A stretch of 64,000 nt of DNA from Prochlorococcus sp. AG-679-M10 (GTDB lineage Bacteria > Cyanobacteriota > Cyanobacteriia > PCC-6307 > Cyanobiaceae). Where the stretch lies: assembly GCA_003210655.1 (NCBI GenBank), contig QCUQ01000001.1:62001-126000 (forward strand). Reading direction: 5' to 3'. Shown piece after piece: positions 56,462-61,212 of this stretch (its first letter is position 1; every line of letters begins with the position of its first letter). Made by a program: the position numbers and the translations under genes. Below the pieces are notes generated by a model that had not been told where the DNA came from, did no database searches, and was given only the letters and a program-made list of their open reading frames with translations.

Positions 56462-56584
56462 ATGGAAAACTTTAGTTACTACGAGTATTTAAATTCAATA
56501 TCTTTTCACCCTCCAATAATGATAATAACTACATTAATATTCTTTTTTATAAGAAGAAAATTTTTGGTAGACGCAAAAAAATAA
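56462..56584 (+). CDS. Single-helix membrane peptide, 40 aa
   Basis: MENFSYYEYLNSISFHPPIM then a helix MIITTLIFFFIRRKFL and VDAKK. A nearby ATG in another frame stops after eight codons. Function unknown. Confidence 0.5.
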   Translation: MENFSYYEYLNSISFHPPIMIITTLIFFFIRRKFLVDAKK

Positions 56585-56684: not shown

Positions 56685-57053
56685 TTAACTAGGAGTTGTA
56701 ATTGAACTACTTAATCCATAGGTGAGAAATATAAAAGTAGCAAACGATACTCCAATCATAACAGTAGTATACAATTTATTTAATTTAAATTCATTTTGTA
56801 TAGAAGAAAAATCAGCTATTACAAAGTTTTTCATAGAATATTTTTCTCTACTTATAAAATTATTACTATTAACCAAATTACCAAGAATAGGTTCTGAGTA
56901 AAGAGAATTTTCCTGAGTTATAAAAGGATTAAAAGTTTTATCTTCATTAAAGAAAGTAGGGAACATATAAGTATGCCATAAAGCTATTATTGCAACCCAA
57001 AAAATTACACTTAAACCTGCAATACCAAAAAGTAAGAATCTAAATGTCTCCAT
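56685..57053 (-). CDS. Membrane protein with two terminal helices, 122 aa
   Basis: Helices at residues 4-30 (FRFLLFGIAGLSVIFWVAII) and 95-117 (TVMIGVSFATFIFLTYGLSS) flank a polar loop of 60 residues. No family recognised. Adjacent to a 27-residue peptide gene and divergent from the PsbY/PsbF-like pair, so it might belong to the same membrane system; this is inference. Confidence 0.62.
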   Translation of the reverse strand: METFRFLLFGIAGLSVIFWVAIIALWHTYMFPTFFNEDKTFNPFITQENSLYSEPILGNLVNSNNFISREKYSMKNFVIADFSSIQNEFKLNKLYTTVMIGVSFATFIFLTYGLSSSITTPS

Positions 57054-57261: not shown

Positions 57262-57555
57262 ATGGACTTTAGAGTTGTACTAGTTATTACTCCTATTATT
57301 TTTTCCTGGATCTTTACAGTTTTTTGGTTAGGTAAGTGGGATGTATTTAGATTGACACCTTTTGGACTTCCTAAAGATGGTGTAGCTCCTTTTAAGAATT
57401 ATCAAGTATGGGAAGATTCGTCGATTGTCAATACAAATAGACCTGAGGAAGGTTATCCAGTCTTCACTGTAAGAACTGCAGCTGTAAATGCTTTAGGAAT
57501 TCCAACTGTTTTCTTCCTAGGAGCAATTTTGGCTATGCAGTTTAAATCTTATTAA
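57262..57555 (+). CDS. PsbY/PsbF-like chimeric membrane protein (lacks haem histidine)
   Basis: Residues 1-30, [20 protein letters not shown] plus FWLGKWDVF, resemble PsbY (MDxRVxxVxxP start). The last 36 residues, [20 protein letters not shown] plus [12 protein letters not shown], align closely with the cytochrome b559 beta subunit PsbF ([30 protein letters not shown] region). The PsbF haem-ligand histidine (AVHTL) is asparagine here (AVNAL). The two helices are joined by a 35-residue polar linker. True psbF normally lies in a psbEFLJ operon elsewhere. It may be an alternative PSII assembly or stress subunit. Confidence 0.78.
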
Positions 57556-57569
57556 TTTAAAGAATTTAG

Positions 57570-57755
57570 ATGGACATAAGATACTTAATAGTGGGTGCAC
57601 CTTTTATAATTGCATTCTTCTACACTTTGTTTTGGCTTAAAAGATGGGGAGCTTTTAATTCATCTAGTGGGGATCACCCAAAAAAAATCAATATAAAAAA
57701 TGAACGATCAAGCGGAGATTTGATAATAGAAAACATCTTCCTAACAAAAAATTAA
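57570..57755 (+). CDS. PsbY-like small membrane protein, 61 aa
   Basis: MDIRYLIVGAPFIIAFFYTL then FWLKRWGAFNSSSGDHPKKI. The helix aligns with the first helix of the preceding gene (MD-x-R ... P ... FW-L-x-x-W), so the two arose by duplication. The polar tail is basic and likely disordered. Fourteen bases downstream of the chimeric gene, probably co-transcribed. Confidence 0.65.
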   Translation: MDIRYLIVGAPFIIAFFYTLFWLKRWGAFNSSSGDHPKKINIKNERSSGDLIIENIFLTKN

Positions 57756-58404: not shown

Positions 58405-58818
58405 ATGATTAATAAGTCTAATAAAGAAAATACTTTAGAAAATATTTATTCAGATTTAGAATCTGGAATGCCAGAGAATAAGTCTATAAAAGAGTACGCT
58501 CTTCCTAATGCAAGACAATGGTTAGGGGCTAGATTTGTAGCTATTTGGGTTTTGCCTATATTTTTTATAAAGAAAATTTCAAAATTCTATGCATCATCCG
58601 CTTTCATAAAACCTTACTCACCATCAAAAACAGGTCCTTCTTATAATCAACCCGAAACATTATATACTTCTTTAAAAAATGTTTTTAAAGGTAAAGATCA
58701 TATAAGATTTTTTGATCATAGATTTATTGGTGTTTGGGTATTACCTATAGCCTTAACTGGAATAGTTTTTGAAATCCTATTAATTGCTCCAACTAATAAC
58801 ACCTCTCCTTTTAATTAA
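58405..58818 (+). CDS. Membrane protein with internal duplication, 137 aa
   Basis: Two similar helices: LGARFVAIWVLPIFFIKK (about residue 40) and DHRFIGVWVLPIALTGIVFE (about residue 107). The shared R-F-x-x-(I/V)-W-V-L-P-I core shows internal duplication. Polar segments between them contain SPSKTGPSYNQPETLYTS. No family recognised. Neighbours hli genes. Confidence 0.65.
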   Translation: MINKSNKENTLENIYSDLESGMPENKSIKEYALPNARQWLGARFVAIWVLPIFFIKKISKFYASSAFIKPYSPSKTGPSYNQPETLYTSLKNVFKGKDHIRFFDHRFIGVWVLPIALTGIVFEILLIAPTNNTSPFN

Positions 58819-58939: not shown

Positions 58940-59083
58940 TTAAATAATCCCAGGTACAATTTGTCCTGTTGATATGTAAGCCCCAACAAGAGCAATTACT
59001 CCAACAAGAGCAAATCTGCCATTTAGTTTCTCTGCACTTGTTTTTTGAGGATCAATATTTCTTTTTTGATTTTTATTTTCCAT
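58940..59083 (-). CDS. hli: High-light-inducible protein (47 aa)
   Basis: NIDPQKTSAEKLNGRFALVG then VIALVGAYISTGQIVPGII. The start overlaps the preceding hli stop by one base (TAATG). The AM of the usual motif is AL here (NGRFALVG). Confidence 0.93.
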   Translation of the reverse strand: MENKNQKRNIDPQKTSAEKLNGRFALVGVIALVGAYISTGQIVPGII

Positions 59084-59205
59084 TAAAAAACTCCTGGAAT
59101 AAGTTGACCAGTTGTTACGTATGTTCCGACTAAAATCATGAAAGCCATCATTGCAGGTCTTCCAATGGCTCTGTCAAGAATGTCTTTGTTTGAGTTCATT
59201 TTCAT
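59083..59205 (-). CDS. hli: High-light-inducible protein (40 aa)
   Basis: DRAIGRPAMMAFMILVGTYV then TTGQLIPGVF. The core is variant: the usual E-x-x-NGR is D-R-A-I-GR. The ORF track start at 59280 adds a non-conserved stretch; ATG 59205 (or 59199) gives an HLIP of normal size. First gene of a two-hli transcript. Confidence 0.9.
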   Translation of the reverse strand: MKMNSNKDILDRAIGRPAMMAFMILVGTYVTTGQLIPGVF

Positions 59206-59553: not shown

Positions 59554-59877
59554 ATGGAAGTCTTACTTTTTGCGCTGTTTTTTTTAGTTACTATAATATT
59601 TTTTATTGCAGGGAAAGATGATTTTGGAAGAAAAGAAATTAAATTAGAATTAAATCAGAAAGAAGAGATTAAACAAGATCTTAAGGATGAGCCTAAAGAG
59701 GAAATTAAGAAAGAAGAGATTAAACAAGATCTTAAGGATGAGCCTAAAGAGGAAATTAAGAAAGAAGAGATTAAACAAGATCTTAAGGATGATCCTAAAG
59801 ATGAAATTAAGAAAGAAGAGATTAAACAAGATCTTAAGGATGAGCCTAAAGAAGAAGTCAAAAAAGAAGTAGAATAG
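59554..59877 (+). CDS. Membrane-anchored protein with four 17-residue lysine/glutamate repeats
   Basis: One N-terminal helix (EVLLFALFFLVTIIFFIAG) is followed by a cytoplasmic or periplasmic tail of four nearly identical 17-residue units (KEEIKQDLKDEPKEEIK). Each unit has a proline, so it should form broken charged helices. Repeat number likely varies between strains. The minus-strand ORF at 59655 is only the shadow of the repeat. Confidence 0.78.
   Translation: MEVLLFALFFLVTIIFFIAGKDDFGRKEIKLELNQKEEIKQDLKDEPKEEIKKEEIKQDLKDEPKEEIKKEEIKQDLKDDPKDEIKKEEIKQDLKDEPKEEVKKEVE
59660..59863. repeat. 51-bp tandem repeat, four copies
   Basis: Units begin with AAGAAGAGATTAAACAAGAT and are spaced exactly 51 bases apart. 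Copies 1, 2 and 4 are almost identical; copy 3 has two substitutions (GATCCTAAAGATG). Because 51 is divisible by three, the frame is kept when copies are gained or lost. Confidence 0.95.
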
Positions 59878-60844: not shown

Positions 60845-60982
60845 CTATTGCTTTTTAAACATTGCATTCTGATTGGATAACCAAAATATTAGAAAAATAA
60901 AGAACGATAATAATGCCCCAGAAAAAATTGAAATAAAGAAGAATTCAGTAGTTATATCAGAATTAACAAAAAATAAATACAT
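60845..60982 (-). CDS. Small one-helix membrane protein, 45 aa
   Basis: MYLFFVNSDITTEFFFISIF then SGALLSFFIFLIFWLSNQNA and MFKKQ. It lies 14 bases downstream of the PsbN-like gene on the same strand and may be co-transcribed. Function unknown. Confidence 0.55.
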   Translation of the reverse strand: MYLFFVNSDITTEFFFISIFSGALLSFFIFLIFWLSNQNAMFKKQ

Positions 60983-60996
60983 TTAAATATACTTTA

Positions 60997-61212
60997 TTAA
61001 TGAATATGATCTGCTTCATTATGGTTTTGACTATTATGTCCATGAGCGATACCTAATTCATGTAACCTTGCATGCTCCTTAATTGTATCTCTTAATTTAT
61101 ATGATGAGGGTCCAACTGTTGTGTAGATTCCATATCCTATTGAACCAAAAAGTAGTAGACCAATACTCCCTAAAAGTAAAAATAATGTTGGATCTTTAGT
61201 TACACCTAGCAT
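60997..61212 (-). CDS. PsbN-like membrane protein with histidine-rich tail, 71 aa
   Basis: The helix LFLLLGSIGLLLFGSIGYGI is followed by YTTVGPSSYKLRDTIKEHAR. This matches the PsbN pattern of helix, (F/Y)xxYTxxGPPSxxLxDPxxEH. It differs by an N-terminal extension and a histidine-rich tail (ELGIAHGHNSQNHNEADHIH), which might bind metal. PsbN is needed for PSII assembly and repair. True psbN usually lies near psbH or psbB, so this is probably a paralogue. Confidence 0.65.
   Translation of the reverse strand: MLGVTKDPTLFLLLGSIGLLLFGSIGYGIYTTVGPSSYKLRDTIKEHARLHELGIAHGHNSQNHNEADHIH

Follow-up and report, generated by a model that had tools for sequence, protein, structure and literature searches.

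A PsbN paralogue with a conserved extension is the sole PsbN of LLI Prochlorococcus and commonly co-occurs with a long-form cytochrome b559 beta subunit

The DNA analyzed here (the window) is a stretch of 64,000 nucleotides, contig positions 62001-126000, from the genome of Prochlorococcus sp. AG-679-M10, whose assembly is about 62% complete. On its minus strand, positions 60997-61212 encode a protein of 71 amino acids with an ATG start (MLGVTKDPTLFLLLGSIGLLLFGSIGYGIYTTVGPSSYKLRDTIKEHARLHELGIAHGHNSQNHNEADHIH), an extended PsbN paralogue that we refer to as ePsbN. AlphaFold2 predicted a transmembrane helix at residues 8-32 (61117-61191, minus strand; pLDDT about 85), a break at GP and a second helix at residues 36-67, modeled with low confidence. 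The membrane helix is followed on the same strand by the PsbN core VGPSSYKLRDTIKEH (residues 33-47; 61072-61116), as identified by Pfam match, alignment and profile-profile comparison. A conserved extension, ARLHELGIAHGH (residues 48-59; 61036-61071), which the alignment shows to be missing from canonical PsbN, and a variable His-rich tail (residues 60-71; 61000-61035), recognized by sequence comparison, complete the protein. The model and the alignment thus give ePsbN the architecture of PsbN, with one N-terminal membrane helix and a conserved hydrophilic C-terminus.

A first-pass annotation had described the product as PsbN-like, which profile searches bore out. The Pfam family PsbN (PF02468) matched residues 13-47 with 25.8 bits (E 9.6e-6), narrowly passing the gathering cut-off of 25. 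Profile-profile comparison with canonical picocyanobacterial PsbN gave a probability of 96.4 and an E value of 1.1e-9 over 42 aligned columns, ruling out a chance likeness. Canonical PsbN (PF02468; NF009650) and ePsbN have in common the N-terminal membrane helix followed by YxxFGxxxxxLxDxxxEH, and are homologous by profile. However, canonical PsbN is about 43 residues long and ends at (E/D)(E/D)H(D), in sequences such as DPWDDHDD, whereas ePsbN continues beyond EH with the block A+xHELGIAHGH and the tail. It also scored far below the cut-off of the NCBIfam PsbN equivalog model (NF009650; 24.6 bits, cut-off 70). In a tree built on the core columns alone, a long branch (100/99, length 1.42) divided ePsbN from canonical PsbN and the canonical-type phage proteins. 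Nor does the ePsbN gene lie at psbH, on the opposite strand of which psbN is expected; in this genome that site is occupied by canonical psbN (G000:C5:69744-69869, 60.9 bits), which adjoins psbH. Thus, ePsbN is a second PsbN-like protein, as first proposed, and not the only one of its genome. A structure search of the PDB returned no fold match to ePsbN, and there was no noteworthy sequence match in the PDB.

We defined the ePsbN subfamily as proteins whose PsbN core is followed by EH[AS][RK][LM]H[EK]LGIAHxH, a pattern that the window protein contains. Alignment showed that the 12 residues past EH, A[RK][LM]HELGIAHGH, are conserved across hosts and phages, while the sequence beyond them varies in length and content between members. 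H47 (from EH), H51, H57 and H59 are near-invariant, being kept in almost all members. Among 20 HL sequences, pN/pS was lowest in the core (0.03) and the block (0.06), rose to 0.21 over the N-terminus and membrane helix, and was highest in the tail (0.35). Median dN/dS over the whole gene was 0.11 for 186 HL pairs and 0.015 for 18 LLI sequences. The first-pass annotation had seen the addition in a tail with seven histidines. The His-rich tail is a real feature and the count is right from residue 47 on, but H47 is PsbN's own, leaving six added, and it is residues 48-59 that form the conserved addition. The tail, under the lowest constraint of all segments, was rejected as the functional novelty of the protein. 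Note that individual HL copies are damaged: two (L025, L058) are truncated or frameshifted, and in one of the two MIT9107 copies (L026) the block is altered to HELGFAQDH with loss of H57. We conclude that 60997-61212 is a real gene under purifying selection and a true relative of PsbN.

Compared genomes are named below as NATL2A, SS120, MIT9211, AS9601, MIT9515 and MED4, which we take to be their identities. A small membrane protein of 45 residues (60845-60982, minus strand) begins 14 nt downstream of ePsbN and adjoins it in 39 of the 45 HL loci of the window type; in SS120/MIT9211-type genomes a different membrane protein of 57-64 residues takes its place. Two high-light-inducible (hli)-type genes, named by sequence with no profile, follow at 58940-59202 (minus strand), and most HL loci have an hli gene within about 0.5 kb downstream of ePsbN, usually after the 45-residue protein. 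The window also encodes a membrane-anchored protein built of KEEIKQDLKDEPKEEIK repeats (59554-59877), with relatives in most HL loci. The PsbY-like gene that had been proposed in the window found no Pfam or NCBIfam match.

At 57262-57555 (plus strand) lies a member of the known long-form cytochrome b559 beta (PsbF) family (NF002720, 205 bits, cut-off 127; NF002717), which is a candidate partner, not a homologue, of ePsbN. A short paralogue of its N-terminal half follows at 57570-57755 (plus strand; NF002717, E 2e-6, residues 1-46). Two conserved membrane proteins adjoin the long PsbF gene, protein A (56685-57053, minus strand), found also in NATL2A and lineage g4, and protein B (58405-58818, plus strand), found also in NATL2A and SS120. 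Locus comparison adds a small protein C (56462-56584, plus strand) to the cassette. The flanks of long PsbF match those in the window, with A and B in both NATL2A and g4 and C in NATL2A as well, these cross-clade likenesses resting on visual comparison and on tblastn with single members. Protein B had no Pfam match; its RFMSIWVFPVAITGAVIEFLFVGP stretches (window 58405-58818; L249 858-1286) resemble PsbE/PsbF by eye, with Trp at the place of His.

Close relatives of ePsbN occupy 58 loci in a species-level genome collection, nearly all of them in Prochlorococcus. They comprise a 71-residue HL type, a 95-residue HL type and an HNLC type, and MIT9107 and MIT9201 carry both HL types. A family-wide search of 300 genomes added LLI (g56), g4, g27, SS120-type (g11) and MIT9211-type (g39) genomes, some single genomes, and 4 of the 23 genomes of g34, a marine Synechococcus-type genus. 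All four g34 genomes also keep canonical psbN. They are very probably CRD1, because CRD1 strains are reported to have a psbN paralogue (PMC9124967). As far as the passages concerned allow comparison, that paralogue very probably belongs to the ePsbN subfamily (HKLGIAHSH versus HELGIAHGH); neither the extended block nor a link to long PsbF is described in those passages. Some iron-limited Synechococcus, very probably of the CRD1 type, carry ePsbN. None was found in MED4. Among 292 genomes from across the phylum, those outside Cyanobiaceae yielded only partial matches, which stop where the PsbN core does or shortly beyond it. In the CRD1-type genomes (L128-L131) an AlpA-type prophage regulator (PF05930) adjoins ePsbN, suggesting a mobile island. 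In LLI, g4 and g27 genomes a His-rich multi-membrane protein directly follows ePsbN (L145 4171-4854; L140 3019-3684). The LLI protein matched no Pfam family above cut-off, leaving its identity as a metal transporter without Pfam support.

Canonical psbN, counted by hand from the table as a match with E below 1e-11, was missing from 18 of 196 good Cyanobiaceae genomes, namely 17 of LLI (g56) and G153 of g4. ePsbN is present in sixteen of these; the remaining two, which gave no match whatever, are g56 genomes with incomplete assemblies. Searching up to E 10 revealed no other credible psbN in five complete LLI genomes or in G153. The interval between psbH and psbI contains psbN in SS120; LLI and g4 have psbH and psbI but no psbN between them, and no decayed psbN is recognizable in the LLI interval. 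Thus, ePsbN is the sole PsbN in LLI (NATL2A-type) and in one further lineage (g4). The absence of any other PsbN from one abundant ocean lineage suggests that ePsbN truly performs the function of PsbN in that lineage.

Cytochrome b559 shows a parallel pattern. The His of short PsbF is a ligand of the cytochrome b559 heme. Five distinct short PsbFs have His at this position, and all 36 distinct long PsbFs examined have Asn, including those at window 57262-57555, L249 1453-1746 and L244 1453-1761. LLI and g4 have no PsbF but the long form: psbE and psbL lie about 30-40 bases apart with no psbF between them, the place where SS120 has psbF. PsbE reads HAVA from its own heme His in LLI and g4 and HAVT in other clades; the stretch that LLI and g4 (L227, L228) have in common there is HAVALPAIFVAGFLFVSSG, against HAVTLPAIFIAGFLFV[SY]TG in other clades (L240, L241).

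The first-pass annotation had suggested a tie between ePsbN and the PsbF-like gene at 57262, and the two do co-occur across genomes and are often linked. According to hand-entered presence lists, long PsbF is present in 31 of 33 good genomes with ePsbN versus 13 of 163 others, counts that are not independent by descent. In g34 it is found in 4/4 genomes with ePsbN and 0/19 without (Fisher p 1e-4), a contrast that amounts to one independent event. Within HL the difference (8/8 with ePsbN, 10/15 without) is not significant (p 0.12), and three HNLC-type genomes have both genes. The two lie 0.5 kb apart in the SS120-type genome G241, 3.7 kb in the window and 6.5 kb in AS9601, and the gap widens to about 9-10 kb in the CRD1-type genomes and in one of the HNLC type; in LLI and MIT9515 they are unlinked. 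The suggestion of a set of accessory PSII assembly factors fits the presence of a second set beside canonical psbN, but "accessory" is too weak for LLI-type genomes, where these are the sole PsbN and PsbF, and the assembly role is itself a matter of interpretation.

Cytochrome b559 belongs to the D2 module. In tobacco, PsbN helps the D1-D2 heterodimer to form and aids recovery from photoinhibition; its C-terminus is stromal (review PMC4823308). The explanation that we favor, by no wide measure, is that ePsbN is a PSII assembly or repair factor doing PsbN's job, adapted to cytochrome b559 with long PsbF. It builds on homology, purifying selection, the conserved extension, distribution, the parallel loss of psbN and psbF, and co-occurrence. 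The protein would have a single membrane helix, a PsbN core on the cytoplasmic side, a helical prolongation EHA+xHELGIAHGH and a variable tail, and would help precursor D1 to join the D2-cytochrome b559 module during reaction-center assembly and repair. It appears fitted to cytochrome b559 containing long-form PsbF; since PsbN and PsbF were replaced jointly in the same lineages, co-adaptation of assembly factor and substrate would be the simplest reading. In LLI and g4, ePsbN would serve as sole PsbN, and in HL, SS120-type and CRD1-type genomes as part of a second set. Its four histidines may touch a metal or heme, or just shape a protein-binding helix. Against this explanation, long PsbF occurs in ten good HL genomes that have no ePsbN, the association is not significant within HL, the two genes are unlinked in LLI, and the phage collection yielded no long PsbF. 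Furthermore, in Synechocystis, mutating psbN along with psbH looks no more harmful than mutating psbH alone (PMC4823308), and loss of canonical psbN therefore need not demand a substitute.

The same organism offers the starting point for a different explanation, in which ePsbN is a paralogue specialized for stress or repair that acts on a new target and could not stand in for PsbN, and LLI simply lost a dispensable canonical psbN. PsbN is non-essential in Synechocystis (PMC4823308), and the strong divergence of ePsbN along its long branch, its proximity to hli genes, its patchiness in HL and its island-like settings, such as the AlpA-type regulator in CRD1-type genomes, would all fit. We nevertheless consider this unlikely: canonical psbN has been lost only in lineages that bear ePsbN, the pattern of psbF is parallel, and selection is strongest on the core residues.

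Alternatively, ePsbN might be a membrane-anchored ligand protein that binds metal or heme through H47-x3-H51-x5-H57-x-H59, serving cytochrome b559 or metal delivery instead of PsbN's task. The histidines are indeed kept across host clades and phages, including the CRD1-type, long PsbF is devoid of the heme-ligand His, and the protein after ePsbN in LLI, g4 and g27 is rich in histidine. However, that neighbor has no Pfam family above cut-off, ePsbN itself matched no metal-binding family or fold, H57 is lost in one MIT9107 copy, and the His motif might just as well be a helix for protein contacts. This makes a ligand function improbable.

PsbN has also been reported as one of two genes that are universal and exclusive to T4-like phages isolated on Prochlorococcus (T4-GC163; PMC3037559). 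The "possible PsbN" of this cluster (Sullivan 2010, PMC3037559; phrog_8051) proved to mix two kinds. The versions of P-SSM2, P-SSM5, P-SSM7 and P-TIM68, and of several single-virus phage genomes, bear the ePsbN block, whereas those of P-SSM4, MED4-213 and P-RSM6 have the ending of canonical PsbN (...QWEEHDD). Both kinds have a common phage leader, xxFLSxPxVYxLPGTW (L251-L254, L095-L097), not present in hosts, and the tree places each kind with its host kind. A protein of the Synechococcus phage S-SSM7 has the leader and membrane helix without the PsbN end. The ePsbN phages were isolated on NATL1A, NATL2A and MIT9515, which, as far as tested, have ePsbN themselves or, like NATL1A, belong to a clade that does, and MED4, the host of MED4-213 with its canonical-type PsbN, is without ePsbN. 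Phage ePsbN plausibly sustains PSII repair while infection proceeds. A search of the phage collection found no long PsbF. The close phage homologues of ePsbN and its patchy host distribution might suggest that the host gene is a stranded auxiliary gene of phage origin. This is highly improbable, given that the phage proteins form one tree group with a leader not found in hosts, that the tail of the P-SSM2 protein, GHGGNKEAYEMSGKL, matches that of LLI hosts, GHGGSSEAYEMSGKL, suggesting exchange with hosts, and that nearly all sampled LLI genomes have ePsbN, those read having it at a constant position on the chromosome.

The phage gene, the CRD1 psbN paralogue and the long PsbF models were known before. 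A search of open-licence papers turned up nothing on the extended block, on LLI having lost canonical psbN or psbF, or on a link between psbN and psbF. Returning to ePsbN as a factor doing PsbN's job, it is conceivable, though we put this forward only tentatively, that an alternative PSII assembly set evolved in Prochlorococcus. This set would consist of ePsbN and cytochrome b559 with a long PsbF free of the heme-ligand His, would have wholly replaced the standard pair in LLI and would be used by phages.

The role of PsbN in cyanobacteria is unsettled, and the joint replacement of PsbN and the cytochrome b559 beta subunit constitutes a natural experiment on PsbN's target. ePsbN also offers a reason why Prochlorococcus myoviruses retain psbN. 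The only PsbF of cultured LLI strains is without the heme-ligating His of cytochrome b559, an oddity in a complex otherwise held to be invariant. If the alternative set is real, PSII of LLI Prochlorococcus would run on a cytochrome b559 that is heme-free or whose heme is held through other ligands.
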